Positions 1,272-24,895 of a stretch of DNA of 31,086 nt are shown here, piece by piece. Source of the stretch: a virus. Positions within the stretch are counted from its first letter, which is position 1, and the number at the start of each line of letters is the position of its first letter. The DNA is taken from the IMG/VR virus record IMGVR_UViG_3300020200_001285, positions 1 to 31,086 of that record; one strand, 5' to 3'. The position numbers and the translations under genes were made by a program. The notes under the pieces are model-generated. The model did no database searches. It saw only the letters and a program-made list of their open reading frames with translations, and was not told the DNA's origin.

Positions 1272-1884
1272 AATACCAGCGTATTGGATTAATCTAGAAT
1301 CAAATACTAAGAATAGAGATAGAATGCAAGCACTGCTTGATGGTCTTGGTTTTAAAAACCACCACAGAGTAGATGCAGAAGTTCGTCCTGCTCCTCTAGG
1401 AACTCCAGAATCAGAAAAGCATTATGTCGGTGTAGCTGAATCGATGTTTAAGGTTCTTGGAAACCAGGAAATAAAAACTCCATTTATTCTTTTTGAAGAT
1501 GATGTTGGAGTTTCAGAAGATTTTTGTCCAAATATTGAAATTCCAGATGAAACTGATGCTGTTTATCTTGGCGTTTCTACTGGCAATCGTAACTATATCA
1601 CTCGTAGATATAACGAAGGTTACCTCAAGATAGGTGGAATATTGGCCCTTCATGCAGTTTTGTATCTAACTGAAGAATACAGAAAGGATGTTCTGTCCTT
1701 TGGTAAATTGATCGTTTACCGCTTTAAGAAGCCTATTGATATTGCAACGGCTTCACTTCAGGAAAGAGCTACGGTTCTTACGCCAAACAAGCCATTCTTC
1801 TATCAAAGCGACGAAGCTGCTGGCTTGAACAAGTGGCAATACCTTACTGATAAACCATTGGAGAATCGTAATGTTAACTTTTAA
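1252..1884 (+). CDS. GT25-like glycosyltransferase
   Basis: This is a probable GT-A-fold sugar transferase related to family 25 (LPS and phage or giant-virus glycosyltransferases). It opens with the family's usual N-terminus, AYWINLESNTKNRDRMQALL (residues 10-29), then HHRVDA, and carries an acidic FEDDV motif (E82-D83-D84) that would bind the metal and nucleotide sugar. The 210-aa length is normal for this compact family. The donor and acceptor cannot be told from sequence. The gene overlaps the preceding ORF by 20 nt and the following fucosyltransferase gene by 14 nt. Its base composition resembles the core replication genes more than the very AT-rich genes that follow. Confidence 0.75.
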   Translation: MNIDLREIPAYWINLESNTKNRDRMQALLDGLGFKNHHRVDAEVRPAPLGTPESEKHYVGVAESMFKVLGNQEIKTPFILFEDDVGVSEDFCPNIEIPDETDAVYLGVSTGNRNYITRRYNEGYLKIGGILALHAVLYLTEEYRKDVLSFGKLIVYRFKKPIDIATASLQERATVLTPNKPFFYQSDEAAGLNKWQYLTDKPLENRNVNF

Positions 1885-2635: not shown

Positions 2636-3453
2636 ATAGCCTGCATATTATAACAAATGCATTTACGGGTGGTTCATGTTTAAAATATCATCCAAAAAAA
2701 TTCGTTTGGATATTTAATCAATATCCAAAAGATGCTTCTCCAGTTGTTTACTTTGATGATAGCATTTTTGGTAGATTAAAAGATGGTTATTCTGGACCAA
2801 GATATGGATGGCTAGGAGAATCATCAGAAATAATACCTAATTTACTTACGATTGCATCTTCTAATATTGATGGTCTTAAGAAATACTATAAGAAAATTTT
2901 TACTAATGATAGAAGATTAATAGAAAAGGATCCATCTTTTTTTTCTTATAATCCTCCATCATCTAATGTTCCGTGGATAACAAAGCCAAGAATATACGAA
3001 AAGAAAAACTTATGTTCTTACATAACTAGTTTTAAAAGTTCAACCTCTGGACATAAGTTGAGACTAGAGTTATTTCAAAAGCTATCAACTCATCCTATAT
3101 TTAAAGATCATATTTTTGGCAGAGACTATAATTATCTTGAAGATAAGATTGATGGATTGAGCAGCTACATGTTTTCTGTAGTTATAGAAAATGCAAAATA
3201 CCCAAAATATTACACAGAAAAAGTTACAGATTGTTTTGCTACAGGGACTATTCCAATTTATTTTGGAGATAAATCTATATGTGAAGACTTTGATGAAGAT
3301 GGTATAATTTTTATAGAAGAAAAAATAGATCTTAGTATTATCTCAGAGGAAACATATAAATCAAAATTAGAAAGTGTAAAGACTAATTTTGATAAAGTTA
3401 TGCAGCTTAAAATAGCAGACGATTGTATATTTGAAAATATAAACAATGATTAA
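2632..3453 (+). CDS. GT10 family glycosyltransferase (alpha-1,3-fucosyltransferase-like)
   Basis: The C-terminal half contains the GT10 donor-site signature at about residues 181-212: FSVVIENAKY, then YYTEKVTDCFATGTIPIYFGD. This region binds GDP-fucose in alpha-1,3/4-fucosyltransferases. The N-terminal half, with IFTNDRRLIEK and a PWI segment near 114-116, is the more variable acceptor domain. Total length is 273 aa. The likely start is GTG at 2632, overlapping the preceding stop by 4 nt (GTGA). The gene is markedly AT-rich, with A/T-ending codons unlike gp62 or gp43, which suggests a separate origin. Use of GDP-fucose is known for the family; the sugar made here is not shown by the sequence. 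Confidence 0.85.
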   Translation: MNSLHIITNAFTGGSCLKYHPKKFVWIFNQYPKDASPVVYFDDSIFGRLKDGYSGPRYGWLGESSEIIPNLLTIASSNIDGLKKYYKKIFTNDRRLIEKDPSFFSYNPPSSNVPWITKPRIYEKKNLCSYITSFKSSTSGHKLRLELFQKLSTHPIFKDHIFGRDYNYLEDKIDGLSSYMFSVVIENAKYPKYYTEKVTDCFATGTIPIYFGDKSICEDFDEDGIIFIEEKIDLSIISEETYKSKLESVKTNFDKVMQLKIADDCIFENINND

Positions 3454-4297
3454 ATTACATATATGTGATTTTTGGAATGATTTTGATTATAAAAATAATT
3501 TATTTGTAAAATTATTTAAAGAAATATATCCAGATTGTTTATTAACAAATAAAGAAAATGCAAATTTAATTTTAAGTGCAGATGTAAATATACAAAATAA
3601 AATAGATGTACAAAAACAAAAATGTATTTATTATACTGGAGAACCAAATAATATAGATTTTTTAAAATATGATTATGTTTTTTCTTTTGATCCTAGTATC
3701 AATAATAATATAAGATTTCCTCTTTGGTTATTGTATATAAATCACAATCAAGATTATTCGACGGATGAAAATTTTCCAATAGGATTGAAAGAAATTGATA
3801 ATAATAGATGGTTAAGAACAGAAAAGAAAAATTTTTGCGTTGCTCCTTTCTCTGCTATAAAACAAAATAGAATAGATTATTTTAATTTATTGTCTTCGTA
3901 TAAACCAATAACCGGATTTGGAATTCCTTTTGGTAACGGAGATACAGAAAGAAAAATAATAAAAAAATATAATTTTATATCTAACTTTAAATTTTGTATG
4001 GCATTTGAAAATACTAATAAGTTAGGATATATTACGGAAAAGCTATTTCAAGCAAAATTATGTGGATGTATTCCAATATATTGGGGAAATTATTTTTGCA
4101 AAAATGATTTTAATGAAAAATCATTTATAAATGTTTTAGATTGGTCGGATCCAAAAGAATTTTTAGAGTATATTTCTTTGATAGATCAAAATAAAGATTT
4201 ATACGAATCTTTTCAAAAACAATCTTTGTTTAAAACATCGTTTTATGATATAATAGAAAATATAAAAACTAATATAAAAGAAAAAATTTTATTATGA
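3446..4297 (+). CDS. GT10 family glycosyltransferase, second copy
   Basis: This 283-aa protein is a second GT10 enzyme. It has an N-terminal YYTGEP motif (residues 62-67) followed by YDYVFSFDPS, as in bacterial alpha-1,3-fucosyltransferases. The donor-site signature lies at about residues 184-215: CMAFENTNKLGYITEKLFQA, then CGCIPIYWGN. It is not a recent duplicate of the preceding gene, because outside the motif the two proteins differ greatly. It overlaps both neighbours (8 nt and 4 nt), so the three fucosyltransferase genes are probably translated together. The gene is among the most AT-rich in the window. It may add fucose or another GDP-6-deoxyhexose at a different position from its neighbour. 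Confidence 0.88.
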   Translation: MIKLHICDFWNDFDYKNNLFVKLFKEIYPDCLLTNKENANLILSADVNIQNKIDVQKQKCIYYTGEPNNIDFLKYDYVFSFDPSINNNIRFPLWLLYINHNQDYSTDENFPIGLKEIDNNRWLRTEKKNFCVAPFSAIKQNRIDYFNLLSSYKPITGFGIPFGNGDTERKIIKKYNFISNFKFCMAFENTNKLGYITEKLFQAKLCGCIPIYWGNYFCKNDFNEKSFINVLDWSDPKEFLEYISLIDQNKDLYESFQKQSLFKTSFYDIIENIKTNIKEKILL

Positions 4298-5025
4298 ATA
4301 AAAACTTATTAATAATACCAGCTGGAAAAAAATCAGAACATATTAAATGGAATAATGATTTATCTGAAGTAAATTTTGATTTAATTATTTTAAATTATGA
4401 TTCTACACACGTTTTCAATGATATTACTAGTAAAAGTGCTAAAAAAATAGTAAATAAAATTGGAATGAAATGGAAAATGATATCGGAATTATATAAATCT
4501 GATATTCTCTTAATAGACAAATATGATTATGTAATGATGATGGATGATGACATAGAAACTACTCCAGAAAATATCAATTTGTTTTTTGATATAGTTTCTA
4601 AAGAAAATTTTGATTTAGCTCAACCAGGATTAGGAAATGGTAGTACTTTTTCTTATCCAGAAACTTTGAAAAAAGATGGTTATTATCGCACGACAAATAT
4701 GGTTGAAATAATGATACCATGTTTTAGTAAACGATATTTAAAGAAAGCAATTGAAGATATAAATAATTGCCCAACTGGTACTGGTTGGGGTTTAGAAGGA
4801 GCTTGGACTAAAAAATATCATGATAATTTTGGAAGAACTATATTTGGTGGAAATATTGGTATAATAGATTGTGTTGATTTTTTCCACAGAAGACCAGTTG
4901 GAGGAACTGAGTCTAAAATATATGAAAAATTTGGAAATCCTATGATTTCCTTAAGGAAGCAAGAACAAATTAACAATTTTAAATGGTCTGATATGAAATT
5001 TACTATTTACAACACTATAAAATGA
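4294..5025 (+). CDS. DUF707-like putative glycosyltransferase
   Basis: The 243-aa protein resembles the DUF707 family, GT-A-like proteins annotated as putative sugar transferases in plants and bacteria. The visible features are a triple-aspartate motif VMMMDDDIE (D84-D86) with hydrophobic residues before it, then FDLAQPGLG, NMVEIMIPCFS, and a glycine-rich GTGWGLEGAW segment. This order of motifs is what I recall for DUF707. The start overlaps the previous stop (ATGA), and its own stop overlaps the next start in the same way. It is very AT-rich like its neighbours. The donor sugar cannot be read from the sequence. It could also be classed only as a generic GT-A transferase. Confidence 0.7.
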   Translation: MNKNLLIIPAGKKSEHIKWNNDLSEVNFDLIILNYDSTHVFNDITSKSAKKIVNKIGMKWKMISELYKSDILLIDKYDYVMMMDDDIETTPENINLFFDIVSKENFDLAQPGLGNGSTFSYPETLKKDGYYRTTNMVEIMIPCFSKRYLKKAIEDINNCPTGTGWGLEGAWTKKYHDNFGRTIFGGNIGIIDCVDFFHRRPVGGTESKIYEKFGNPMISLRKQEQINNFKWSDMKFTIYNTIK

Positions 5026-5795
5026 AAACAAAAATAATATCTTTACCTTCCGCTACAGATAGACAAAAAACTATTAGTCAGACTTTTGCTGATAAAAATA
5101 TAAAATTTGATTTTTCTACAGGAGTAAATTTAAATGATATTAAATTTGATAAAAATAAATGTGGATTTATTTTTAATAATACTTTTTTTCATTTTAATTT
5201 TTCTCAACTAATAAAATATACAAATAGAAATTGGATTCGATTTGGAGAAATAGGATGTCTTTTATCACATTACAAAATATACAATGAACTTATTAATGAT
5301 GATAAAAATGAAGCATATCTTATTTGTGAGGACGATTGCAAACCATCTATAAATTTTAAAGTAGAAAATTTAAATAAATTTGATTATTCAAAAATAGATT
5401 TATTGTATTTACAATCAATAACAGCTCATTTTCAGAATAAGCAAGTAATTGTTGATACACTTCCAAATTTTGATTCTTATCCTAAAGTCAAACACATAAA
5501 CAAACATATTCCTATTATATGCGAAGGAACTACATCGTATATAATTACAAAAACTGGAGCAAAAAAGTTTTGCGATTATATAAATTTAAATGGGTATGAT
5601 GGACCAATTGATAATTTATTTACAAGAATTCCGAATTTAATTTTGACATGTCCAGAAGATATAAAAAATTATTTTACTCTTGAAGAAACTGCTAAAGAAT
5701 CATCTATACATTCTGGAAATTTTTTGTATAATTACAATTTCTGTGATATAACTTTAAAATCAAATTCTAATCTTGAATTTCTTAATGACAACTAA
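5022..5795 (+). CDS. GT25 family glycosyltransferase
   Basis: This is a clear family 25 (LPS-type) glycosyltransferase of 257 aa. It has the N-terminal KIISLPSATDRQKTI segment, the family-specific GEIGCLLSHYKIYNEL (about residues 75-90), and the metal-binding CEDDC motif (E103-D104-D105). A later TTSYIITKTGAKKF segment matches the region near the catalytic pocket in this family. It is a better match to classical GT25 than the gene at 1252. It overlaps the preceding stop (ATGA) and ends 2 nt before the rfbH-like gene, where base composition changes sharply from very AT-rich to more balanced. The acceptor and donor are unknown. Confidence 0.87.
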   Translation: MKTKIISLPSATDRQKTISQTFADKNIKFDFSTGVNLNDIKFDKNKCGFIFNNTFFHFNFSQLIKYTNRNWIRFGEIGCLLSHYKIYNELINDDKNEAYLICEDDCKPSINFKVENLNKFDYSKIDLLYLQSITAHFQNKQVIVDTLPNFDSYPKVKHINKHIPIICEGTTSYIITKTGAKKFCDYINLNGYDGPIDNLFTRIPNLILTCPEDIKNYFTLEETAKESSIHSGNFLYNYNFCDITLKSNSNLEFLNDN

Positions 5796-5797
5796 TT

Positions 5798-7111
5798 ATG
5801 GAAAATATCTTAAAAGCTATCGAAGAATACATCAACGAAAAGAACCAGAATAAGATATGGGTTGCTGGACAAGATTGGGTTCAATATGCCGGATCTTATT
5901 TTTCAGCAGAGGAATATGTTGAAGTCACTAAGTCTCTGCTTAATGGTTGGCTTGCTTTAGGAGAAAGCGGCATTCGCTTTGAGCAGATCTTTCCTAGACT
6001 CATGGGAAAGGAATATGGAATTCTGACTAACAGTGGTAGTAGTTCAAATCTCATCATGATGTCTGCTATGACATCAAAAAGATTGTATAACTTTCCAAAG
6101 GGAACCAAGGTAATCACTCCAATTGCCGGATTTCCAACGACAATCAATCCCATCTTTCAGGTAGGATTTGATCCTGTTTTCGTTGATATTGATCTTGATA
6201 CTCTAAATCTAAATCTAGATCAGGTAGAGGAAAAGGCCAAGCAAGGCTGCAAGATCATCACCTTTGCACATGTTCTAGGCAATCCTCCAACCATGGATAG
6301 GCTTATGGAAATTGTAAAGAAGTATGATCTAATCCTTCTGGAAGATTGCTGCGATGCTCTTGGTTCTACCTATAGGAACAAGCCTCTTGGTTCCTTTGGG
6401 GAGCTTGCTAGCTGCTCGTTCTATCCAGCCCATCATATCACAATGGGCGAAGGAGGCTTTGTAGCCTGTAATACACACCAGCAAGAGATCGTTACCAGAA
6501 GCTTCCGTGAATGGGGTAGAGGGTGCTATTGTGTCGGTAAGAAGGCTAATCTTCTCAAGAACGGCTCCTGCAAGAAGCGGTTCTCTAATTGGCTTCCTGC
6601 ACTCCCAGACGAGATCTTCGATCACAAGTATGTCTATGATGAGATCGGATACAACCTAAAGCCAACAGAACAGCAAGCTGCCATGGGTCTAGTACAGCTT
6701 AAGAAGCTTCCTCAGATAATCCAGAAGAGAAAGCACAATCACGCAAGGCTACACAAAATCTTCTCAAAGTATGAAGATATGCTGATGCTGCCAAAGGCAA
6801 CTGATGGATCTGATCCTAGTTGGTTTGCTTTTGCAATTACTATTCGTGACGATGCTCCTTTCAGACGAAAGTATATTGTAGAATACTTTGAAGAAAATAA
6901 GATTCAAACCCGGCCATACTTTGCCGGAAATATCATGCTCCAGCCAGCTTATTTTGGTTTAATGAATGAGTTTGAGGTCATACATAATTACCCAAATGCA
7001 AGAAAGGTCACAACTGATACTTTCTTCTTGGGAACAAGTCCAGTTATAACAGATGTGCAGCTGGATTATATTGAAAGCGTGGCAGATTACTTTTTTAATG
7101 ATGCTATATGA
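5798..7111 (+). CDS. rfbH: RfbH-like NDP-4-keto-6-deoxyhexose 3-dehydratase (PMP and Fe-S dependent)
   Basis: RfbH (E1, AscC-type) removes the 3-hydroxyl from an NDP-4-keto-6-deoxyhexose, the committed step to 3,6-dideoxyhexoses such as abequose, paratose and yersiniose. The fold is that of DegT/DnrJ sugar aminotransferases. The PLP-lysine position is histidine: in SFYPAHHITMGEGG the aligned residue is His212, as in RfbH (His220 in the Yersinia enzyme), so it would hold PMP and dehydrate rather than transaminate. Other RfbH marks are LEDCCDALGSTY, WGRGCYC, SCKKRF, HKYVYDEIGYNLKPTEQQAA and RPYFAGN. Cysteines 243, 245 and 258 probably bind the [2Fe-2S] cluster, with a longer spacing than I recall. 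Length (437 aa) is typical. No RfbI-type reductase partner is visible. Codon use is closer to the core genes than to its AT-rich neighbours. Confidence 0.93.
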   Translation: MENILKAIEEYINEKNQNKIWVAGQDWVQYAGSYFSAEEYVEVTKSLLNGWLALGESGIRFEQIFPRLMGKEYGILTNSGSSSNLIMMSAMTSKRLYNFPKGTKVITPIAGFPTTINPIFQVGFDPVFVDIDLDTLNLNLDQVEEKAKQGCKIITFAHVLGNPPTMDRLMEIVKKYDLILLEDCCDALGSTYRNKPLGSFGELASCSFYPAHHITMGEGGFVACNTHQQEIVTRSFREWGRGCYCVGKKANLLKNGSCKKRFSNWLPALPDEIFDHKYVYDEIGYNLKPTEQQAAMGLVQLKKLPQIIQKRKHNHARLHKIFSKYEDMLMLPKATDGSDPSWFAFAITIRDDAPFRRKYIVEYFEENKIQTRPYFAGNIMLQPAYFGLMNEFEVIHNYPNARKVTTDTFFLGTSPVITDVQLDYIESVADYFFNDAI

Positions 7112-7821
7112 ATAAACGAGTTTTAATATTGACTGGAACGACTGACATAGTAAGAAACCCAAATGAAACAGATTCTACTATGGAAGAAGTATTTGATTTA
7201 ACTTTACCATCAAAAATAAAATATGCAAAAAAGCATGGATATGATATCTTAGCTTTAAGATCATTTGGTACAGATCAAAATAATGTATTTACAAATACAG
7301 AAATTGGATTCTTGAGAGAATTAAGAACATTTGATATGCTTAAGCATTACGATATTGTAATGTGGGTTGATGCAGATTCCATCATTACAAATGATAATTA
7401 TTCTATAGATGATTTTGAATTAGATAATGATCATTGTTTTTATGCATCATGGGATTGGACTGGTAAATCAACATTTAGCACTGGAAATTTTATAATTAAA
7501 AATGTACCAAGTACAGAACAAATGTTTAAAGCTTTTTTAAGCGTTGGTAAACATGTGAAAGATAAAAAATATTGGGGTCAGGAACAGACTACTATGAATA
7601 TGATTCTGAATTCTACCCCTCTTGGTAAGAATATCAAAGTATTAGATCATAAGTATTTGAATTCTATTCCCGAAAAAAATATTTTAGGAAGTATTTGGGG
7701 ATCCGATAGACCAGAACCAAAATTTCCATGGTGCAATGATTCATTTTTAGTTCACTTGACTGGAATAGGTAATACTGAAAGAATAAATTTAATTAAAACG
7801 CATTTTAGTAGATTTATATGA
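7108..7821 (+). CDS. GT-A glycosyltransferase, GT34-like (galactosyl/xylosyl transferase type)
   Basis: The 237-aa protein has the pattern of GT34-like transferases: an early KIKYAKKHGYDILAL segment (residues 36-50), then DIVMWVDADSIITN with the D88-A-D90 metal and nucleotide-sugar motif, a STGNFIIKN segment, YWGQEQTTMNMIL, and a final LVHLTGIG histidine motif. No membrane anchor is present, unlike eukaryotic GT34 enzymes. It overlaps the rfbH-like gene and the next gene with ATGA junctions, so it is part of the same translation chain. It is AT-rich again. The donor is unknown; the family name is a best match by motif order. Confidence 0.72.
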   Translation: MNKRVLILTGTTDIVRNPNETDSTMEEVFDLTLPSKIKYAKKHGYDILALRSFGTDQNNVFTNTEIGFLRELRTFDMLKHYDIVMWVDADSIITNDNYSIDDFELDNDHCFYASWDWTGKSTFSTGNFIIKNVPSTEQMFKAFLSVGKHVKDKKYWGQEQTTMNMILNSTPLGKNIKVLDHKYLNSIPEKNILGSIWGSDRPEPKFPWCNDSFLVHLTGIGNTERINLIKTHFSRFI

Positions 7822-8495
7822 ATAAACTTCAGCTTAAAAACATAACTCTTTTATCGTATAATTGTGTTGATCCTATTCAAAGTGTAAAAGCACTTTTATA
7901 TAGCTCTAAAGATATTGATTTTGCAGAACTTATTTTAGTTAGTAATAAAAAACCAGAAAAATTACCAAGTAATATAACATTTATAGAAACAAAATATACA
8001 ACATATAAAGAAGGATCTTTATTTACATATAAAGATTTGCCTGATATAATTAAAACTGAATATTATTTAGGAATTCATGATGATGGATTTGTTATAAATC
8101 CCCATTTATGGAGAGATGAGTTTTTAAAATATGATTATATCGGTGCTCCTTGGAAGTGGGAAGGACGGAGAATTAGAGTGGGAAATGGCGGATTTGTATT
8201 GAAGAGCAATAAATTTATTCAACTCACAAAGAAATTAAAGTTCTTGGGATTCTGTGATGACGGTGAACTAACCAACATGTATTATGACTTTTTTATAGCC
8301 AATAACTGCAAATATGCTCCAGTAGAAGTTGCTATGAAATTTTCTTTAGAATCAAGAATACCAGAATGTGAATTTAACTTAAATAATTGTTTTGGATTTC
8401 ATGGAAGAGGAAACCCAGAAGGTGTGGCTGTTCATGATGGTTTTTATCACCAATTTCAAGAAAAATGTAAATTATTAGACACAATAGAAATTTGA
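7818..8495 (+). CDS. DUF5672-like glycosyltransferase
   Basis: This 225-aa protein matches the DUF5672 pattern: YYLGIHDDGFVINPHLW around residues 83-97, DYIGAPWKW (106-114), and VGNGGFVLKSNKF (121-133). These proteins are predicted sugar transferases found in glycan clusters and in phages. A downstream GFHGRGNPEG segment may form the C-terminal substrate loop. The start overlaps the previous stop (ATGA). A 28-nt gap with GGAG follows before the next gene, so it closes the first tightly overlapped block of glycosyltransferases. No signal or membrane segment is seen. The specific sugar is unknown. Confidence 0.75.
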   Translation: MNKLQLKNITLLSYNCVDPIQSVKALLYSSKDIDFAELILVSNKKPEKLPSNITFIETKYTTYKEGSLFTYKDLPDIIKTEYYLGIHDDGFVINPHLWRDEFLKYDYIGAPWKWEGRRIRVGNGGFVLKSNKFIQLTKKLKFLGFCDDGELTNMYYDFFIANNCKYAPVEVAMKFSLESRIPECEFNLNNCFGFHGRGNPEGVAVHDGFYHQFQEKCKLLDTIEI

Positions 8496-8523: not shown

Positions 8524-9387
8524 ATGAATGATAATAATAAAATTTCAGTATTTGGTGGATCTGGTTTCATAGGATCTAATTTTTGCAAACTTTATTCAAA
8601 TGATGTTATAAAGATTGATCGAAATGATTATGTCCCAAAATCAAACAATATTTTGTATTTTATAAGCACTGTAGATAATTACAATGTTCATGAAGATATT
8701 CATGTCGATATCGATACTAATTTAACTATACTGATGAATGTTCTAGAAAACATTCCTAAGAACAGCGATGTTACTTTTAATTTCATAAGTTCTTGGTTTG
8801 TTTATGGAAAGAACTACGAAATGCCATTTAGAGAAGATCACTCTAAGTGCAATCCAACTGGTTTTTATTCTATTACAAAGTACTGTGCTGAACAGCTTCT
8901 AATTTCTTTCTGTCAAACACACAACATTAAGTATAGAATATTCCGTCTGGCAAATGTCTTAGGTGTTGGTGACAACAAGATTTCTAGAAAAAAGAATGCT
9001 TTGCAGTTCCTAATCAAAGAGATAGTCAACGATAGAGATGTTCACTTATATTACGGTGGTGAGGTTCTTAGAGACTATATTGGCGTTGAAGATGCATGCT
9101 CTGCTCTTAAGTTCTGCATGAGTAAAGGTAATGTCAACGAAGTCATCAACATAGGTAGCGGAAAGCCATATAAGTTCTTGGATATAATCAACAAGGCTAT
9201 TGATTATTCCAAGTCATCTTCTAGAATAGTTCACATAAATCCAACTATGTTCCATGACATAGTTCAGATTAGACATTCTTACCTAGATACTGCAAAGTTA
9301 ACCAGCTACGGTTTTAAGTTGTCTAAAGACATAGACAAGATTGTAGAAGAGTTAGTTAATCATTATAAAGAAGAAAAGAACAAGTGA
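8524..9387 (+). CDS. Extended SDR: NAD(P)-dependent nucleotide-sugar epimerase/reductase
   Basis: The 287-aa protein has the dinucleotide-binding motif GGSGFIG at residues 11-17, the serine pair before WFVYG (about 89-95), and the catalytic YxxxK as Y115-SIT-K119. A later YGGEVLRDYIGVEDAC segment is typical of extended SDR sugar enzymes. It lacks the T-D-E triad of 4,6-dehydratases, so epimerase or 4-ketoreductase activity is more likely. Next to the RmlB- and RfbH-like genes, a role in reducing or epimerising the 4-keto-3,6-dideoxy sugar is reasonable (compare RfbJ, RfbS, YerF). It lacks the motifs I recall for GDP-fucose synthase (Fcl). GGAG lies about 11 nt before the ATG. The exact reaction is not determined. 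Confidence 0.82.
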   Translation: MNDNNKISVFGGSGFIGSNFCKLYSNDVIKIDRNDYVPKSNNILYFISTVDNYNVHEDIHVDIDTNLTILMNVLENIPKNSDVTFNFISSWFVYGKNYEMPFREDHSKCNPTGFYSITKYCAEQLLISFCQTHNIKYRIFRLANVLGVGDNKISRKKNALQFLIKEIVNDRDVHLYYGGEVLRDYIGVEDACSALKFCMSKGNVNEVINIGSGKPYKFLDIINKAIDYSKSSSRIVHINPTMFHDIVQIRHSYLDTAKLTSYGFKLSKDIDKIVEELVNHYKEEKNK

Positions 9388-9388
9388 T

Positions 9389-10339
9389 ATGAAAATAGTA
9401 TATGTGACTGGCTGTTTAGGATTTATCGGTTCATACATCACACGCTTATGCCTTGAAAAGGGCTGGTATGTGAAGGGTGTGGATAAGATGACCTATGCCG
9501 CTAACAAAATCTTATTGAAAGAATTTCAAGAGCACAAGAACTTTTCTTTTGTTCATTGTGATATAAATGAACTAACATTTTTGTATGATTGCGACTATAT
9601 CATCAATACTGCTGCGGAAACACATGTAGGAAACTCAATTGCTAATAGCGATGATTTTGTTAAGTCTAATATTGACGGAGTTCATAATCTTCTAAAGCTC
9701 ATTAAAAATTATAGACAGGAAAATGGTAAAATACCAGTCTTCTTGCATTTCAGCACTGACGAAGTGTATGGAGATATAGTTGGTGATTCGCACAAGGAAA
9801 CTGATATTCTTAAGCCATCTAATCCATATTCTGCTACTAAAGCTGCCGCAGACATGTTAATTATGGCTTGGAATAGAACATATGGCATTCCATATGTCAT
9901 TGTTCGTCCCACAAATAACTATGGTGTTGGGCAATATGTGGAAAAATTGATTCCCAAGACATGTAAGTATTTGAAGCTCGGTAGAAAGATTCCTTTACAT
10001 AACAATGGAACACCGATTAGAAATTGGTTACATGCCGAAGATACTGCTACAGGAATTATAGCAATAATTGAAGCTAATGTTAAAAATCAAATCTACAATA
10101 TCTGTGGAGGTTTTGAACAGACAAATATAGAAACGGTTAAAAAGATTTTGACTGCTCATAACTTGGATGTTTCAGATACAGAAAAGTATATTGATTTTTC
10201 TTGTAATAGACCAGGACAAGATGTAAGATATGCTCTTGACGATTCCAAATTAAGATCACTTGGTTGGAAACCGACGAAGATTTTCGATCAAGAATTAAAG
10301 GTTATTGTAGATTATTACAATAATAAATTTATATGGTAA
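9389..10339 (+). CDS. RmlB/RfbB-like dTDP-glucose 4,6-dehydratase
   Basis: This enzyme type oxidises, dehydrates and re-reduces an NDP-hexose to the 4-keto-6-deoxy form. The 316-aa protein has TGCLGFIG at 7-14, the dehydratase triad in STDEVYG (T123, D124, E125), YxxxK at Y147-K151 within NPYSATKAAADML, and RPTNNYGVGQYVEKLIP, which is diagnostic for RmlB-like enzymes. It is somewhat shorter than RmlB (about 350-360 aa). It does not resemble the CDP-glucose 4,6-dehydratase RfbG that usually partners RfbH, so the nucleotide carrier in this pathway may be dTDP rather than CDP. It would supply the substrate for the RfbH-like enzyme. No dTDP-glucose pyrophosphorylase is in the window. Confidence 0.87.
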   Translation: MKIVYVTGCLGFIGSYITRLCLEKGWYVKGVDKMTYAANKILLKEFQEHKNFSFVHCDINELTFLYDCDYIINTAAETHVGNSIANSDDFVKSNIDGVHNLLKLIKNYRQENGKIPVFLHFSTDEVYGDIVGDSHKETDILKPSNPYSATKAAADMLIMAWNRTYGIPYVIVRPTNNYGVGQYVEKLIPKTCKYLKLGRKIPLHNNGTPIRNWLHAEDTATGIIAIIEANVKNQIYNICGGFEQTNIETVKKILTAHNLDVSDTEKYIDFSCNRPGQDVRYALDDSKLRSLGWKPTKIFDQELKVIVDYYNNKFIW

Positions 10340-12102
10340 AAGTTGCAGATTATATCTCTAATTTTTTAGAAAAAAAGGGCATACGTCACGTTTTTATGGT
10401 AACTGGAGGCGGTGCTATGTTTCTAAATGACGGATTAGCTAAAAGTAAATCCATAAAAGGTATATTTAATCATCATGAACAAGCATGTGCTATGGCAGCA
10501 GTAGGATATTCTAAATTTAATAATGAGATATCTGTTGTAATGCCAACAACTGGTTGTGGTGGCACTAATACTATAACTGGATTATTAGATGCTTGGCAGG
10601 ATAGTAATAAAGTAGTGTTTATTTCTGGAAATGTAAATAAAAAAGAAACAACGCACGGATTAAATATTCCTCTTAGAAAATTTGGTGTTCAGGAAGCAAA
10701 TATTGTAGATATTGTTAAACCAATTACAAAATATGCATTTATGGTCACGGATCCAAATACTATTGCATATCATTTAGAAAAAGCATTTTATCTGTGTGAG
10801 AGTGGAAGACCAGGACCTGTCTGGTTAGATGTTCCTATGGATATTCAAGGAAGTTTTATTGAAGAGGAAAATCTTATTCATTTTTCTCAAGAAACTCCAG
10901 ATCAATCAATTGATTGTTCTATATTTGAAAAATACTTAAAAGAAGCAAAGCGTCCAATTGTTATTGCTGGTTACGGCATACATCTTTCTGGAGCAAAAAA
11001 CGAATTTATTCGTTTTATTGAAAAATATAATTTACCAATAGCATTTACTTATCTAGCTATAGATTTTTTACCATCTAATCATCCTTTATATGTCGGTAGA
11101 CTAGGGACAAAAGGAGATCGTGCTGGAAATTTTGCAGTACAAAATAGTGATCTCGTTATTTCTATAGGTAGTAGCTTAGGTGTCTCTATTACTGGGTTTA
11201 GATATGAGACATTTGCAAGAGAAGCAAAAATAATTGTTGTAGATATAGATAAGCACGAACATAAAAAAAATACAATAAAAATAGATGCTGAAATAAATGC
11301 TGATGTAAAGTATTTTTTAGGAGAAGTACAAAATATAAATTATAAAACAGATCAATTATGGATTGATAAATGTATTTCTTGGAGAAATAAATGGCCAGTA
11401 TTTAAGGACGAATACAAAGATACTTCTAATGGTATTAATATTTACAATTTTGTCGAAAAACTTTCAGAAAAAAATAAAATAGATGCAATCACTATTAGTG
11501 ATGCTGGATCAGCATATTATGCTACCTCTCAATGTTTAAAAATTACCGATAAGCAGAGGTATATTACATCTGGAGCACAAGCTGATATGGGATTTTCTTT
11601 ACCAGCAGCGATAGGAGCAGCTATAGCATCTGAAAGAAAAAATATAATAGCTATTACTGGTGATGGTTCATTTCAAATGAATATTCAAGAATTACAAACA
11701 ATTGTAAATTTTAACTTGCCAGTAAAAATATTTGTATTGAATAATGGAGGTTATCTCTCTATTCGTAATACAATGGATAAATTTTTTGAAAGTCGGTATT
11801 ATGGAACAGATAAAAATTCTGGTCTTTCATTTCCAGAAATTGAAAAAATAGCTTATGCATATAATATTCCATATTATAAATTAGCAACTTCAGAAGATCT
11901 TGATTATAAATTAGAAAAAATATTAAATTATGATGGATATGTTCTCGTAGAAGTAATATGTCCATTCAAGCAAGATATGGTTCCGTCCTCATCAGCTAAG
12001 ATAAATAAAGATGGAAAATTAGTATCTCAACCACTAGAAAATATGTTTCCATTTCTTAGTGAAGAAGAATTTAAAAGTGAAATGATTATTAACCCCCTAT
12101 AA
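10333..12102 (+). CDS. Acetolactate-synthase-like TPP- and FAD-type enzyme, candidate sugar C-C branching enzyme (YerE-like)
   Basis: The 589-aa protein has all three domains of the acetohydroxyacid synthase family. The N-terminal TPP domain has the catalytic glutamate in NHHEQ (E49) and GRPGPVWLDVP near 158-168. The central domain is the FAD-type domain. The C-terminal TPP domain has GDG at 443-445 and NN at 470-471. In Yersinia O:VI the homologue YerE transfers a two-carbon acetyl unit from pyruvate to CDP-4-keto-3,6-dideoxyglucose in yersiniose synthesis. The neighbouring RfbH- and RmlB-like genes fit such a role. Plain acetolactate synthase for valine or pantothenate is the alternative, made notable by the panB homologue next door. 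The gene overlaps its predecessor by 7 nt and is AT-rich. Confidence 0.85.
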   Translation: MVKVADYISNFLEKKGIRHVFMVTGGGAMFLNDGLAKSKSIKGIFNHHEQACAMAAVGYSKFNNEISVVMPTTGCGGTNTITGLLDAWQDSNKVVFISGNVNKKETTHGLNIPLRKFGVQEANIVDIVKPITKYAFMVTDPNTIAYHLEKAFYLCESGRPGPVWLDVPMDIQGSFIEEENLIHFSQETPDQSIDCSIFEKYLKEAKRPIVIAGYGIHLSGAKNEFIRFIEKYNLPIAFTYLAIDFLPSNHPLYVGRLGTKGDRAGNFAVQNSDLVISIGSSLGVSITGFRYETFAREAKIIVVDIDKHEHKKNTIKIDAEINADVKYFLGEVQNINYKTDQLWIDKCISWRNKWPVFKDEYKDTSNGINIYNFVEKLSEKNKIDAITISDAGSAYYATSQCLKITDKQRYITSGAQADMGFSLPAAIGAAIASERKNIIAITGDGSFQMNIQELQTIVNFNLPVKIFVLNNGGYLSIRNTMDKFFESRYYGTDKNSGLSFPEIEKIAYAYNIPYYKLATSEDLDYKLEKILNYDGYVLVEVICPFKQDMVPSSSAKINKDGKLVSQPLENMFPFLSEEEFKSEMIINPL

Positions 12103-12113
12103 GGAGATTTATT

Positions 12114-13052
12114 ATGCCAGCAGATAGCAAAACAAAGAAAACAATTTTAACTCTTAATACGAATAAGGCAAATGGAATAAAAACTGTATTAGTTACTGCT
12201 TATGATTATCCTCAAGCAATTCTTGCCGATAGAGCAGGAGTTGATTGTATTTTAATTGGTGATTCTTTAGGAATGACTACTCTTGGATATAAAACAACTA
12301 TTCCTGTTACTATGGATGATATGATTCGTAGTTGTGAAGCTGTTAGCAAAGGCAATCAAAATGCTTTTTTGATTGGGGATATGCCTTACATGTCTTATCA
12401 ACCATCCAATCAAATTGCAGTAGAAAATGCTGGTAGATTTATAGTTGCTGGGTGTGATATGGTAAAGGTTGAAGGTGCTATGATTGATCGCATAAAAGCA
12501 ATTGTAGATTCTGGAATAATGGTAATGAGTCATTTAGGACTTACTCCCCACACTAGAGCAAAGTTGGGAGGATATAAAGTCCAAGGAAAAACAGCAGATC
12601 AGGCAGAAGTTATTCTGAAACAAGCATTAAAGCTGCAAGAAGCTGGATGTTCTGCGCTTCTTTTAGAAGCAATGCCTAAAGAACCAGCAGGACTAATTGC
12701 TAAAGAATTGAATATTCCAGTTTATGGAATTGGTGGAGGAAACGAAGTTGATGGCCAATTAGTTATTTTTCACGATCTAACTGGATTGTTTTGGGAATTT
12801 AAATCAAAATTTGTTAAACGTTATTGTGAAGCTGGAAAAATTATCCAAGACGCACTTACGAAGTACGCAGAGGAAGTAAGATCAGGCATATTTCCTGGTC
12901 AGGAAAATTTTTACGAAATTAAAGAAGAAGAACTTGAAAAATTATTAGGCGATGATAAATGGAAATATGAACAAGATAGAGTTGAAAATAATGCCAAGCC
13001 AAATCACTCAGCAACACCAATAACAGTAAATATTTCAGATATTAAAAGATAA
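12114..13052 (+). CDS. panB: PanB homologue: ketopantoate hydroxymethyltransferase
   Basis: PanB transfers a hydroxymethyl group from methylene-tetrahydrofolate to 2-oxoisovalerate, the first committed step to pantothenate. The match is strong: VTAYDYPQA, LIGDSLGMT (D50, S51), IGDMPYM (D89), VKVEGA (K118, E120), SHLGLTPH (H140), LGGYKVQGK, LLLEAMP (catalytic-base position E185), YGIGGGNEVDGQ and FHDLTGL. The residues I recall as Mg2+ ligands and catalytic base are present. The usual GIGAG reads GIGGG. About 45 residues extend the C-terminus beyond the usual length (312 versus roughly 264 aa). A good ribosome site, AAGGAG at 12101-12106, lies 7 nt before the ATG. It sits between the TPP enzyme and an SDR (1-nt overlap TAATG), so a sugar-related role is possible. 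No other pantothenate gene is present. Confidence 0.92.
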   Translation: MPADSKTKKTILTLNTNKANGIKTVLVTAYDYPQAILADRAGVDCILIGDSLGMTTLGYKTTIPVTMDDMIRSCEAVSKGNQNAFLIGDMPYMSYQPSNQIAVENAGRFIVAGCDMVKVEGAMIDRIKAIVDSGIMVMSHLGLTPHTRAKLGGYKVQGKTADQAEVILKQALKLQEAGCSALLLEAMPKEPAGLIAKELNIPVYGIGGGNEVDGQLVIFHDLTGLFWEFKSKFVKRYCEAGKIIQDALTKYAEEVRSGIFPGQENFYEIKEEELEKLLGDDKWKYEQDRVENNAKPNHSATPITVNISDIKR

Positions 13053-13960
13053 TGAAAATTTTGATAACTGGGGCTAATGGATTTTTAGGATCTAATACTC
13101 TAAGAATTGCTCTTAAAAAAGGACATGAAATATTTGCTATTTCTCAAAATAATAATAATATTCAAGATTTAAATGATAAAATATATTTTAGAGAAAATAG
13201 ATCCTATGATTATTATAACCTTCGAAAAGAAATAGTTGATTTTTGTCCAGATGCAATCATGCATTTTGCTTGGTGGGGTGGTAATAATTATAATGATATA
13301 AATTCTATTGATCAATATAATAAAAATATTCCATTATCTACTAGCTTATTAGAAATATCAAAAGATTGTTTTAAAAAACCTAAATTTATTGGTATCGGTA
13401 GTTTTGCAGAATATGGTATTTTATCTACTAAAGCAAAAGAAGATCAGCCAGAATTACCAAATTCAAATTATGGGCTTTCCAAAAATATAATCAAAAATAT
13501 TTCTAAATTATTTTGTGAACAATATTGCATGGAGTGGTCTTGGATACGACCATGTTATGTGTATGGTCCAGGTGATGTAAAAACAAGACTAATACCCAAA
13601 ACCATATCTAAACTAAAATTAGATAAAACTATTGAATTGAATAGTTGTACTAGTATAATAGACTATATTTACATAGATGATTTTTGTGATGCAAGTATTA
13701 CAATCGCAGAAAATAGCGCAAATGGAATCTTCAATATCTGCTCTGGTAATGAGTATACCGCGAAGTCTATAGTAAAGATTATTGCAGATAAGTTAAACAA
13801 TAATAGCCAATTAATATTTAACGCAAAATTAGATCGTGAAAACTTTCCTAAATACATTTGCGGATCAAACGAAAAATTATTCCGTGTATTCAATTGGATA
13901 CCCAAGATTGGTATCGAAAGTGGAATCTTAAAGACTATAGAAAAGGATTGTGTGATATGA
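13052..13960 (+). CDS. Extended SDR: NAD(P)-dependent nucleotide-sugar reductase/epimerase
   Basis: The 302-aa protein has GANGFLG at 7-13 and the catalytic Y140-GLS-K144. An SFAEYG segment (about 117-122) sits where dehydratases have T-D-E, so it is more likely a reductase or epimerase. WSWIRPCYVYGPGDVKTRLIP is a typical SDR sugar-enzyme segment. It is only distantly similar to the SDR at 8524. Its start overlaps the panB stop by one base, so it is translationally coupled to panB and, through it, to the TPP enzyme. That position suggests it reduces the product of the branching step, as YerF does after YerE. This function is inferred from context only. The gene is AT-rich. Confidence 0.82.
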   Translation: MKILITGANGFLGSNTLRIALKKGHEIFAISQNNNNIQDLNDKIYFRENRSYDYYNLRKEIVDFCPDAIMHFAWWGGNNYNDINSIDQYNKNIPLSTSLLEISKDCFKKPKFIGIGSFAEYGILSTKAKEDQPELPNSNYGLSKNIIKNISKLFCEQYCMEWSWIRPCYVYGPGDVKTRLIPKTISKLKLDKTIELNSCTSIIDYIYIDDFCDASITIAENSANGIFNICSGNEYTAKSIVKIIADKLNNNSQLIFNAKLDRENFPKYICGSNEKLFRVFNWIPKIGIESGILKTIEKDCVI

Positions 13961-14604
13961 ATAGATTGAGAACTAAAATTACTAAATTTGATGATTGGTT
14001 TTGGCCAGTTACTGGTAAATATACTTACGACGTTCTTTCGAAACAAAATCTTTACAAGGATATCATCATTCCTCTTTGTAAAGGAAAAACCGACACTCTA
14101 GTTCAGGCAGGAGGAAACTGTGGAATAATTGTCTCTCCTTTCTGTGAGATATTCAAAAATGTTTATACTTTTGAACCAGATGCTACCAACTTTTTGTGTT
14201 TGAATCTAAATTTAGACTTTGAAAATGTTCATAAGTATCAAGCCTGTCTTGGTAACGATAGAAAGCTAATTTCTCTTGAAAATCAATTCACTTATCATAA
14301 CGGGGATAATGGAGCGTTCAATGTTTCCAAAAAGGCTGGACACATACCAGTTCTAAGATTGGACGATTTTAATCTTGAATCGTGTGATGCCATAATGCTT
14401 GATGTTGAGGGATATGAACAAGAAGCCGTAAAGGGTGCTATTGAAACAATTAAAAAGCACAAGCCAGTATTGTGCCTAGAAATGGAACCACCGTGGCTAG
14501 CTAGATATGGTGCTACTGTTGAGTCTCTTACCAATATTCTAATTGAATTAAACTACATCCCATACGCAAAATACGAAGCAGATATCATCTTCGTGCAAAA
14601 ATAA
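13957..14604 (+). CDS. FkbM family SAM-dependent methyltransferase
   Basis: FkbM-type enzymes O-methylate sugars or polyketides. From the ATG at 13957 the protein is 215 aa. It has a SAM-binding motif I variant VQAGGNCGI (49-57), the acidic motif TFEPDATNF (about 71-79), a LRLDDF segment, LDVEGYE and a closing KPVLCLEME, all in the family order. The frame is open upstream to 13858, but I chose 13957 because its ATGA overlaps the previous stop, the junction used throughout this region, and because upstream codons would overlap the SDR by about 100 nt. A likely job is capping or decorating the glycan by O-methylation, which is an inference. Confidence 0.85.
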   Translation: MNRLRTKITKFDDWFWPVTGKYTYDVLSKQNLYKDIIIPLCKGKTDTLVQAGGNCGIIVSPFCEIFKNVYTFEPDATNFLCLNLNLDFENVHKYQACLGNDRKLISLENQFTYHNGDNGAFNVSKKAGHIPVLRLDDFNLESCDAIMLDVEGYEQEAVKGAIETIKKHKPVLCLEMEPPWLARYGATVESLTNILIELNYIPYAKYEADIIFVQK

Positions 14605-14606: not shown

Positions 14607-15824
14607 ATGAAACCTACTATTACACTATGCATGATCGTGAAGAATGAAACACATGTCATTCTTCGTTGCCTTGAATCAATCTATAAGTACATTGATCGCT
14701 ACGACATCACAGATACTGGTTCTACTGATGGAACACAGGATATGATTCGTGAGTTCTTTGCTAAGAAGGGTATTCCTGGAGAAATCTACCAATCTGATTG
14801 GAAGGGCTTCGGTGATCATGCTGGAAAGATTGGATCACGCACAGAGGCATTCCAGAACGCTAAGGGCAAAGCAGATTATGCTTGGGTTATTGATGCTGAT
14901 GATAGCGTTGAGGGGAATTTTAAGTTTCCTGAAAACCCAACTGGTGATTGCTACACGCTACAATTCCGAAGAGGCGAATTCACTTGGTGGAGAACTCAGA
15001 TATTCAAGAATAACCGAGTCTGGAGATATGTCGGCGTTCTACATGAATATCCAGATACAGAACCAAAACCATACAATATTGAAAAGCTTCATGGCAATTA
15101 CTCCATTGACGCTCGTACCGAGGGCGCAAGAAACATTGGTATTGATCCAAAGGAAAAGTATTCTAGAGATGCAGAACTTCTTGAGAAGGCAATTACCGAT
15201 GATCCGACAAACATAAGATATCATTTCTATCTTGCTCAAAGCTATTTTGATTCTCAGCAATGGGAAAAGGCGTTGGGTGCATATGAAAAGAGAGCAACAA
15301 TGGGCGGATGGGAAGAGGAAGTATTCTTCTCAATTTACCGCGTGGCAATTTGTAAGGTTTTCTTACAACATCCCTGGCCAGAAGTTTATGACATGTTCAT
15401 GAAGTCGTATGAGGTTCGTCCAACAAGAGCAGAACCACTATATCAGCTTGCTAGACTGCATAGAATGCACAATAGACCAAGAGCAGCATATAATTATGCT
15501 CGTCTTGCTATGGAAATACCAAGACCAAATGAAGATACTTTGTTCGTTGAAGAAATTCCCTATGAGTGGGGTAATTTAGATGAGCTTGGTGCAGTAGCAC
15601 ACTCAGTAGGTAAATATCATCTTGGCCTTCAAGCTTGCCACAAGTTAGTTTGTGAAAATAAATTTCCAGAGTCGGAGAGAGCAAGAATAAATCATAATTT
15701 AGAGTCCTATAAGAAGATTGTTACCCATATTCAACATCAAAGGGGAGTCCAGGAGATGATCGAAAAGCAAAATAAAAAGGAGATCAAAAAGATAAATAAG
15801 AAGAAGCATAAGGTAAAAAAATGA
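14607..15824 (+). CDS. GT2 glycosyltransferase with C-terminal TPR-like repeats
   Basis: The N-terminal half is a GT-A family 2 domain: TLCMIVKNET (residues 6-15), ITDTGSTDGT with D36 and D41, and the metal site WVIDADDS (D96, D98). Residues from about 190 to 370 are helical repeats of TPR type, for example NIRYHFYLAQSYFDSQQWEKA and PLYQLARLHRMHNRPRAAYN. This fold combination resembles SunS- and OGT-like enzymes that glycosylate proteins, with the repeats gripping the polypeptide. The 405-aa protein ends in a lysine-rich tail (KKEIKKINKKKHKVKK). The gene overlaps the next ORF, a virion-like protein, by 4 nt, and two genes later comes the tail fibre. A protein-glycosylating role on the virion is plausible but not shown. 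Confidence 0.85.
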   Translation: MKPTITLCMIVKNETHVILRCLESIYKYIDRYDITDTGSTDGTQDMIREFFAKKGIPGEIYQSDWKGFGDHAGKIGSRTEAFQNAKGKADYAWVIDADDSVEGNFKFPENPTGDCYTLQFRRGEFTWWRTQIFKNNRVWRYVGVLHEYPDTEPKPYNIEKLHGNYSIDARTEGARNIGIDPKEKYSRDAELLEKAITDDPTNIRYHFYLAQSYFDSQQWEKALGAYEKRATMGGWEEEVFFSIYRVAICKVFLQHPWPEVYDMFMKSYEVRPTRAEPLYQLARLHRMHNRPRAAYNYARLAMEIPRPNEDTLFVEEIPYEWGNLDELGAVAHSVGKYHLGLQACHKLVCENKFPESERARINHNLESYKKIVTHIQHQRGVQEMIEKQNKKEIKKINKKKHKVKK

Positions 15825-19730: not shown

Positions 19731-22271
19731 ATGTCATTTTATACATGTGTCGAGAGCCACGGATCTAAGATCCTCTACAGAGGGGTGGAGAACGGAGTTC
19801 GGGTTCAAAGGGCAATCCCCTTTGACCCAACTTTGTTTATTCCAACCAAGAACAAGACTGAGTGGAGAACTCTCAATGGTGTTCGTCTAGAACCAGTGAA
19901 GCCGGGTAACATGTATGAATGCCGTGAGTTCATCGACAAGTACAAGAATGTCGTTGGGTTCGAAATCTATGGGCAGACCGACTTTGTTTATCAGTTTATC
20001 TCATCGGAATTTCCTCAAGATCTTTCATACGATATTCGTAAAATAGTAATTGCTTATATTGACATTGAAACTACCTGTGAGGATGGGTTTCCTCAGATCA
20101 GCAATCCTTCTGAGCAAGTGATTGCAATTACTGTTCGAATCAATGATCGATCATATGTGTTTGGTCTGGGCGAGTTCAACATAGATGCCCCGAATGTTCG
20201 TTGCCAGAAGTATGACAACGAAAAGCAGCTGCTAGAAGAATTTTTATTGTTCTGGGAATCTCATGCTCCAGATATCATCACGGGATGGAATGTTCGATTC
20301 TTCGATATTCCATATCTCTATAATCGCATCGTAAGAGTTCTTGGTTCTGATGTGGTACTGAAGCTTTCTCCATTTGAACGAATTTACGAGAAGACAATTC
20401 AAACCAGCCGGGGCTATCAGAAATGCTATGAGTTAGTTGGTATATGCACTTTAGATTATTATGAACTATATCAAAAGTTTACTTACAGCAAGCAAGAGTC
20501 GTATCGACTTGATTACATCGCTTCAGTAGAACTAGGTGAGCGTAAATTGTCCTATGACGAGCACGACAATCTCAAGGAGTTCTATAAGAACGACTTCAAC
20601 AAGTTTGTTCAGTATAACTTCCATGATGTCGAGCTAGTATATAAACTTGAACGCAAGATGAAGTTGATTGAACTAGTTCTTGCTGTTGCATATTCCGCCA
20701 AGGTGAACTACGACGATGTATTCAGTCAGGTTCGTACTTGGGACACGATTATCTACAACGAACTACTGAAAGACAAGATCGTGATTCCCCCAAAGAAGTC
20801 TGCACTCAAGGAGCAGCAGTACGAAGGTGCATATGTCAAGGAACCTATTCTAGGTATGAATGACTGGATTGTTTCCTTCGACTTGAACAGCCTTTACCCT
20901 CACCTCATCATGCAGTACAATTTGTCTCCAGAGACAAAGACAGACCGCTCTTTTCTGTTCGTTCGCAACGGTCTAAAGCCTATGGATGTTTTGGAAAAGA
21001 ATGCTAATGCTATTAAATACTTAGAGCAAGCAAAGAAATATGATATCTCTGTTGCCGCAAACGGGGTTGGTTTCACTAGAAACAGCCAAGGCTTTCTTCC
21101 TCGACTCATGGAGAAGATGTACATGGAACGAAGCCAGTACAAGAAGCAGATGATTGAATGCCAGAAGAAGCTTGAGAAGCTTGGTCCAGAGCCAAGTCCA
21201 GAGCGAGAAGAACTGGAACTACAGGTTGCCAAGTTCAACAACTTCCAAATGGCCCGTAAGATTCAGCTAAACTCCGCTTACGGTGCGATTGGAAATGAAT
21301 ACTTCCGCTATTACGATGAAGAGATTGCCGAAGCGATTACACTCTCTGGTCAGCTTTCTATTCGCTGGATTGAAAACAAGATAAACGAGTTCTTGAACAA
21401 GATGCTCAAGACGAATCATGATTATGTTGTTGCTAGCGATACAGATTCAATCTACATCAACATGGGTCCACTGGTAAACACTTTGGCAAAGGGTAAGTCA
21501 ACTGAAGAAATAGTTACTTATCTTGACAAGTGCTGCAAGGAGATTATTGAACCATACATCACGAAGTCCTATGACGAACTTGCTGATTTCATGAATGCAT
21601 ATGCCAACAAGATGTTCATGAAGCGCGAATCAATTGCATCAAAGGGTATCTGGACAGCCAAGAAGAGATACATGCTCCTGGTTCATGACTCAGAAGGTGT
21701 TCGCTACACCAAGCCAAAGACCAAGATCATGGGAATCGAAACATCCCGATCATCCACTCCACAGATTGTGCGAGAGGAGTTGAAGAAGTGTATTGACATC
21801 ATTTTGACCAAGGACAATCCTACTCTTATCAATTACATAGAAAGCTTTCGAAAGAAGTTCCGTAAGCTTGCTCCAGAGGATGTTGCATTCCCTCGTTCGG
21901 TCAACGGAGTCAAGGACTATGCAGATTCGTTTACCATCTATAAGAAGGGTACTCCAATCGCGGTCAAGGGAGCACTACTCTTCAACTACTATATTAAGAA
22001 GTATGATCTTGAAAAGAAGTATCAGTCGATTCGTGATGCCGACAAAATTAAGTTCTTATATCTTAAGTCTCCCAACCCAGTTGGCGGAATCACAGGCAAG
22101 GAGTGTGTAATTTCGTTCATGACTTCTTTGCCGAAAGAGTTTGACTTAAAGAATTACATCGATTATGATACGCAGTTTGAAAAGGCATTCCTAGATCCGC
22201 TCAATAACATTGTAAGTGCTATTGGATGGCAAACGGAAGAACGAAATACATTGGAGTCACTATTTGCATAA
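19731..22271 (+). CDS. 43: Family B replicative DNA polymerase (T4 gp43-like)
   Basis: This is the phage replicative polymerase with 3'-5' proofreading. The exonuclease motifs are YIDIETT (D111, E113), ITGWNVRFFD (to D192) and YNFHD (295-299). The polymerase motifs are DLNSLYP (A, 384-390), KIQLNSAYGAIGNEYFRYYD (B, about 510-529) and ASDTDS (C, 568-573). The 846-aa length compares with 898 in T4. Positions of the first exonuclease carboxylates match T4 (D112/E114) almost exactly, so the N-terminus is well placed. It works with the gp45 clamp and gp44/62 loader. In T4 it directly follows regA; here the glycan cassette and dut intervene. The predicted promoter at 19697 would express it on its own, which makes sense after such an insertion. 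Confidence 0.97.
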   Translation: MSFYTCVESHGSKILYRGVENGVRVQRAIPFDPTLFIPTKNKTEWRTLNGVRLEPVKPGNMYECREFIDKYKNVVGFEIYGQTDFVYQFISSEFPQDLSYDIRKIVIAYIDIETTCEDGFPQISNPSEQVIAITVRINDRSYVFGLGEFNIDAPNVRCQKYDNEKQLLEEFLLFWESHAPDIITGWNVRFFDIPYLYNRIVRVLGSDVVLKLSPFERIYEKTIQTSRGYQKCYELVGICTLDYYELYQKFTYSKQESYRLDYIASVELGERKLSYDEHDNLKEFYKNDFNKFVQYNFHDVELVYKLERKMKLIELVLAVAYSAKVNYDDVFSQVRTWDTIIYNELLKDKIVIPPKKSALKEQQYEGAYVKEPILGMNDWIVSFDLNSLYPHLIMQYNLSPETKTDRSFLFVRNGLKPMDVLEKNANAIKYLEQAKKYDISVAANGVGFTRNSQGFLPRLMEKMYMERSQYKKQMIECQKKLEKLGPEPSPEREELELQVAKFNNFQMARKIQLNSAYGAIGNEYFRYYDEEIAEAITLSGQLSIRWIENKINEFLNKMLKTNHDYVVASDTDSIYINMGPLVNTLAKGKSTEEIVTYLDKCCKEIIEPYITKSYDELADFMNAYANKMFMKRESIASKGIWTAKKRYMLLVHDSEGVRYTKPKTKIMGIETSRSSTPQIVREELKKCIDIILTKDNPTLINYIESFRKKFRKLAPEDVAFPRSVNGVKDYADSFTIYKKGTPIAVKGALLFNYYIKKYDLEKKYQSIRDADKIKFLYLKSPNPVGGITGKECVISFMTSLPKEFDLKNYIDYDTQFEKAFLDPLNNIVSAIGWQTEERNTLESLFA

Positions 22272-24888: not shown

Positions 24889-24895
24889 GGTAACT

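Follow-up and report, generated by a model that had tools for sequence, protein, structure and literature searches.

Branched sugars made by YerE-like carboligases, which depend on thiamine diphosphate (ThDP), are already known from bacteria. These enzymes (YerE, ErwE, JanthE) belong to pathways through CDP-bound 3,6-dideoxy-4-keto sugars that contain an RfbH-type 3-dehydratase. In the yersiniose A pathway (RfbF/G/H, YerE, YerF), the carboligase adds a two-carbon unit from pyruvate. Pyruvate is not used by ErwE from the erwiniose pathway of Pectobacterium, whose preferred donors are 4-hydroxy-2-oxobutanoate and longer analogues of it (PMC12247030). Such 4-hydroxy-2-oxoacids are also formed when PanB and the aldolase YfaU of E. 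coli add 2-oxoacids to formaldehyde (PMC7611260, PMC10127515), a reaction that YfaU performs with pyruvate (PMC7918591). For viruses, an abundant pantoate transferase detected in a marine survey was interpreted as a vitamin B5/coenzyme A (CoA) gene (PMC8940887), and viral ilvB was placed under pantothenate biosynthesis (PMC8226683).

Here, a stretch of viral DNA of 31,086 nucleotides (IMG/VR record IMGVR_UViG_3300020200_001285; the window) was found to carry a gene for a YerE-like thiamine pyrophosphate (TPP) enzyme directly followed by a panB gene within a cluster of sugar genes. The cluster probably enables the phage to make a C-branched 3,6-dideoxy sugar, bound to a nucleotide and destined for a glycan that the phage modifies. 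PanB would provide the donor for the TPP enzyme; we infer the reactions of the pathway, its donor, carrier and target. The first-pass annotation of the window had named five enzymes: an RfbH-type 3-dehydratase (5798-7111), an RmlB-like nucleoside diphosphate (NDP)-hexose 4,6-dehydratase (9389-10339), the TPP enzyme (10333-12102) and two short-chain dehydrogenases/reductases (SDR1, 8524-9387; SDR2, 13052-13960). All five are intact open reading frames (ORFs) with family assignments well above chance, and a sixth gene within the same interval, panB (12114-13052), had gone unmentioned. All genes lie on the plus strand. Those for SDR1, the RmlB-like enzyme, the TPP enzyme and SDR2 form a tight run with the RfbH gene upstream; the RmlB-like and TPP ORFs overlap by 7 bp, and the PanB ORF begins 11 bp past the end of the TPP gene. 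Both SDRs, with Pfam Epimerase matches of 97 and 124 bits, respectively, and the motifs GxxGxxG and YxxxK, are predicted NDP-sugar reductases or epimerases.

The TPP enzyme is a protein of 589 amino acid residues with all three TPP_enzyme domains, a GDG cofactor motif and a C-terminal tail (PLENM..EEF). Its closest solved structure in sequence searches is 8rph (399 bits, against 259 for acetohydroxyacid synthase, AHAS), the YerE-like enzyme JanthE (PMC12188165). The two proteins are 34-36% identical, and the GDG of the window enzyme corresponds to CDG in JanthE. A profile of 17 viral homologues matched JanthE with 597 bits, 5ahk (which we take to be PpYerE) with 442 bits and E. coli AHAS I with 405 bits, and only JanthE aligned with the C-terminal tail. 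The AlphaFold2 (AF2) model (mean predicted local distance difference test score, pLDDT, 88.6) had JanthE as its best fold match, with a template-modelling (TM) score of 0.94 compared to 0.84 for AHAS. In a tree of 109 sequences (IQ-TREE, quick search), 96 YerE-like and 13 AHAS sequences were separated with 100% support in the SH-like approximate likelihood ratio test (SH-aLRT), and JanthE fell into a clade of 72 sequences together with the window enzyme. Membership in the IlvB acetolactate synthases, the outcome that the first-pass annotation had named as contrary to its proposal, is thus rejected, as far as sequence allows, by profile scores, fold similarity and the split in the tree. By sequence, fold and phylogeny the protein is a YerE-like ThDP carboligase, for which carboligation onto a ketone is predicted.

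The protein of 437 amino acid residues encoded upstream exceeds the cut-off of the RfbH equivalog model NF011936 (467 bits, cut-off 423) and has the E1 structures 3bcx and 3bb8 as best matches in the Protein Data Bank. As had been noted, its His212 occupies the position of the pyridoxal phosphate (PLP) lysine: it aligns with the residue mutated to lysine in 3bb8. The iron-sulfur cysteines (EDCCD, CxC..C), whose loss would have counted against the first-pass proposal, are retained in an alignment to 3bcx and the motif HHITMGEGG is present, so that a pyridoxamine phosphate (PMP)/[2Fe-2S] 3-dehydratase is predicted. The 4,6-dehydratase (Pfam GDP_Man_Dehyd/Epimerase; best structural match 2hun) reached 302 bits with TIGR01181, under the cut-off of 365, and is therefore named only RmlB-like; its catalytic motifs TDE (at 123) and YSATK (at 147) are intact. 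With the CDP-glucose dehydratase model it scored 75 bits against a cut-off of 278, in agreement with the earlier proposal of an RmlB-like rather than RfbG-like enzyme. Among 215 viral TPP loci, RfbH matches occurred in 187 and RmlB matches in 124, whereas RfbF-like and RfbG-like proteins were present in three and one, respectively. The window thus shares RfbH, a YerE-like TPP enzyme and an SDR with the yersiniose A pathway, and differs from it in the RmlB-like dehydratase, in the presence of PanB and in that no cytidylyltransferase was recognised.

PanB of the window affiliates clearly with the PanB family of 2-oxoacid hydroxymethyltransferases (ketopantoate hydroxymethyltransferase, EC 2.1.2.11; Pfam 320 bits; TIGR00222 271 bits, cut-off 208), and the core of its AF2 model matches the solved PanB structures 1o68 and 1m3u. 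The residues that we take to be catalytic (D45, S46, D84, K112, E114 and E181 in E. coli numbering, 1m3u) are retained in all 69 viral PanB proteins compared; the metal residues are kept as well. In contrast to known PanB proteins, the viral ones have an extra C-terminal tail and group-specific changes (I200Y, V183M, I212L and V214I), and their gene neighbour is a TPP enzyme in place of panC. A single, separate clade holds 66 of 70 viral PanB proteins, and the remaining four also adjoin a TPP gene; a second PanB lineage (locus L011) adjoins a TPP enzyme 75% identical to that of the window.

This linkage is widespread. More than 100 IMG/VR contigs, mostly fragments, bear the module. A similarity scan with PanB yielded 80 viral loci in which PanB adjoins a TPP gene (in L081 only a fragment of one, at the contig edge), and for 86 of 88 PanB ORFs a TPP ORF lies within about 100 bp. 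This first scan favoured close relatives and was repeated with an alignment led by cell-type PanB. Of the 80 viral loci that the broader scan recovered, 78 have a TPP gene, one has panC and one has neither; in cellular PanB loci, among the matches listed, panC was present in 54 of 80 and a TPP gene in none, and phage-like PanB may exist in cells beyond these matches. In the 215 viral TPP loci, panC, ilvC and ilvN were absent, whereas the same genes were detected in cellular loci used as positive controls. By this context, a pantothenate function of the viral PanB was rejected. A record labelled Microcystis phage MaAM05 (L002, MW495066) has panB together with panC, suf genes and guaD and not in a sugar cluster; this stretch looks bacterial, and the record is possibly mislabelled. 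The same PanB clade adjoins at least four separate TPP lineages, and the presence of PanB requires at least six changes on the TPP tree. No PanB was found in the 60 bacterial YerE-like loci examined, which were sampled outside Pseudomonadota and Bacteroidota; the window enzyme differs from the cellular YerE-like carboligases in being phage-borne and PanB-linked.

Where PanB is absent, other C-C enzymes that form 2-oxoacids often occupy its position, in viruses and in bacteria. Immediate neighbours of 62 non-redundant TPP enzymes from a TPP-led viral scan were PanB (37), HMGL-like proteins (5) or others (17), with three loci truncated. Pfam searches on these neighbours identified HMGL-like in L284, HpcH_HpaI in L271 (strong) and in L217 and L223 (barely over the cut-off), and NeuB in L275 and L282. 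The HMGL/DmpG-like, HpcH/HpaI (to which YfaU belongs) and NeuB families form free 2-oxoacids from pyruvate or phosphoenolpyruvate. An HMGL/DmpG-like aldolase gene lies between the RmlB and TPP genes in L276, L277, L280, L281, L284 and L285, where RmlB is 60-78% identical to that of the window; in the last four of these, RfbH is 75-78% identical to its window counterpart. None of 150 PanB loci contains HMGL or HpcH. A blanket exclusion between PanB and all other 2-oxoacid-forming enzymes was considered and dropped, since NeuB-like and PanB genes co-occur in 19 loci. Clusters of Spirochaetes have the gene order RfbF-RfbG-RfbH-HMGL-TPP, and their TPP enzymes are the nearest relatives of the HMGL-linked viral ones in the tree; the HpcH-linked viral enzymes branch beside the window clade. 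Full-length YerE-like TPP enzymes from the phyla of an Omnitrophota-type (G006) and a deltaproteobacterial (G002) metagenome-assembled genome scored 570-793 bits with the viral profile (AHAS below 480) and are encoded next to NeuB, HpcH, HMGL, transketolase or RfbH plus SDR.

Further genes recur in these surroundings. In some viral loci, a protein with 4Fe-4S domains and weak similarity to LdpA/DUF561 follows HpcH or the TPP enzyme (L217, 8589-9728; L296, 6818-7972) and might be connected with the supply of electrons to RfbH. In HMGL-type clusters of phages and of a Spirochaete, a protein with a phosphoribosyltransferase domain adjoins the TPP enzyme (L281, 7814-9190; L201, 4664-6148; 42% identity). 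Several loci lacking PanB, from viruses as well as bacteria, contain a DJ-1/PfpI-family gene next to the TPP gene or close to it (L216, L220, L286, L336, L338 and L339). Transketolase-like genes adjoin the TPP genes of one bacterial YerE-like lineage and those of its viral relatives that are linked to PanB (L344, L357, L362, L064 and L068).

PanB shares its product class with the donors of ErwE, and a donor-making role most simply explains both its place next to the TPP enzyme and its replacement by aldolases elsewhere. In the pathway we propose, the RmlB-like enzyme would convert an NDP-glucose of the host into NDP-4-keto-6-deoxyhexose, from which RfbH and a host reductase would remove the 3-hydroxyl group to yield NDP-4-keto-3,6-dideoxyhexose. 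With methylene-tetrahydrofolate as the source, PanB would hydroxymethylate a small 2-oxoacid; this is most likely pyruvate, from which 4-hydroxy-2-oxobutanoate would arise. The YerE-like enzyme would decarboxylate this 2-oxoacid and add the acyl unit to the carbonyl at C4, creating a branch with a tertiary alcohol. One or both SDRs may then reduce or epimerise the product, and glycosyltransferases would attach it. The predicted transfer from a 4-hydroxy-2-oxoacid to a 4-keto-3,6-dideoxy sugar would resemble erwiniose synthesis, with the differences that PanB is the proposed donor maker and that the carrier may be dTDP instead of CDP. The branched-sugar route foreseen by the first-pass annotation therefore stands as a phage-encoded pathway with YerE-like, RfbH and RmlB-like enzymes, but not in its yersiniose chemistry: the adjacent PanB that it had missed is co-conserved with the TPP enzyme and argues for a longer, hydroxymethylated donor rather than a copy of yersiniose synthesis. 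More generally, it appears likely on balance that YerE-like enzymes work with a swappable donor-making partner (HMGL/DmpG-like, HpcH/HpaI, NeuB or PanB), that viruses recruited PanB at least twice, and that the viral "vitamin B5" gene serves the branching of sugars with one-carbon units from folate.

Several observations weigh against this pathway. In E. coli the physiological substrate of PanB is 3-methyl-2-oxobutanoate, which makes ketopantoate, or some other 2-oxoacid, a possible donor. No E3 reductase partner of RfbH was seen among the annotated ORFs of the window, in which no search was aimed at E3, and no nucleotidyltransferase or cytidylyltransferase was recognised among them; we assume that the host supplies both functions. 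Seventeen of the 62 non-redundant TPP enzymes have neither PanB nor HMGL as neighbour, though some have HpcH or NeuB. The NeuB-like genes in 19 of the 150 PanB loci lie several kb off and do not adjoin the TPP gene. Variants of PanB at I202 and I212 have a shifted substrate range (PMC7611260); in viral PanB, I202 is kept and position 212 is leucine, and these positions leave the size of the donor unsettled.

Among the alternatives, the one that survives best retains PanB as the donor supplier and replaces 4-hydroxy-2-oxobutanoate by ketopantoate or another branched hydroxymethyl 2-oxoacid. Ketopantoate is the native product of PanB, and with formaldehyde the E. coli enzyme accepts many 2-oxoacids (PMC7611260). 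The group-specific changes in viral PanB and the typical character of the HpcH and HMGL replacements as pyruvate aldolases, which would yield pyruvate-derived donors, speak somewhat against such a donor, each weighing little in either direction, and we regard it as possible but doubtful.

A yersiniose-like pathway, with a two-carbon unit added straight from pyruvate, reduction by an SDR and PanB as an unrelated passenger, would be consistent with the presence of RfbH, SDR and a YerE-like TPP enzyme in the cluster. Five Omnitrophota loci with RfbH and SDR by a YerE-like TPP gene and no 2-oxoacid-forming neighbour resemble such a pathway. A passenger, however, is not expected to adjoin a TPP gene in nearly all viral loci with PanB, and to do so for divergent lineages of the TPP enzyme, nor to be replaced by HMGL or HpcH genes, which renders this explanation improbable. 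Gene adjacency gives no order of steps, and PanB could hydroxymethylate a keto branch already present on the sugar. This order is still less probable, as the enzymes that replace PanB belong to families making free 2-oxoacids and PanB itself binds a 2-oxoacid on its metal, as in the ketopantoate complex 1m3u. The weakest alternative, in which an acetolactate synthase and PanB boost CoA synthesis of the host (as read in PMC8940887), agrees with the TIGR00222 score and the complete catalytic residues of PanB but is very improbable given a TPP enzyme outside AHAS, sugar genes as neighbours, aldolases in the PanB position elsewhere and the absence of panC, ilvC and ilvN from viral TPP loci, with panC in most of the cellular PanB loci listed.

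The surroundings of the cluster are rich in genes for glycan synthesis. A Glyco_transf_34-like glycosyltransferase (7108-7821, Pfam 41.9 bits) and a DUF5672 protein, a probable glycosyltransferase (7818-8495, 52.9 bits), are encoded between RfbH and SDR1. Downstream of SDR2 follow an FkbM-type methyltransferase (13858-14604; TIGR01444 50 bits, cut-off 37.7), whose start probably lies at about 13957 within the listed ORF, and a glycosyltransferase of family GT2 with TPR repeats (14607-15824, Pfam 44 bits). An array of Pfam-assigned glycosyltransferases (GT11, GT10, GT10 (FucT), DUF707 and GT25) occupies 1871-5795. The contig is phage DNA with a T4-like replication block at 19731-30493 (B-family DNA polymerase, UvsX, DnaB-like helicase, primase, ThyX and ribonucleotide reductase), within which a GDP-mannose 4,6-dehydratase-like protein is encoded (23854-24888; TIGR01472 392 bits, cut-off 415). 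Its product could supply the GT10/GT11 fucosyltransferase-like genes (1871-4297), which suggests a fucosylated glycan as well.

No close relative of the TPP enzyme or PanB was found in a protein search of named phage and plasmid records; the earlier statement that no described phage carries this gene set holds for the named phages, and not for the IMG/VR contigs. In several named phage records ilvB genes occur, but there the assemblies seem to include host DNA. In the open-licence literature we found no description of YerE-type branched sugars in phages or of PanB in a donor role. The viral pantoate transferase of the marine survey (PMC8940887), read there as vitamin B5/CoA supply, is probably the same kind of gene as the viral panB described here; the gene context seen here favours sugar branching, and viral pantoate transferase is probably not a CoA gene. 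If this is correct, a gene taken for CoA support would belong to a viral glycan pathway, calling for a reinterpretation of such auxiliary genes, and PanB would gain a second role. The neighbouring gene would then predict the donor of YerE-like enzymes, and phages would build branched sugars themselves, presumably altering the surfaces of virions or hosts.

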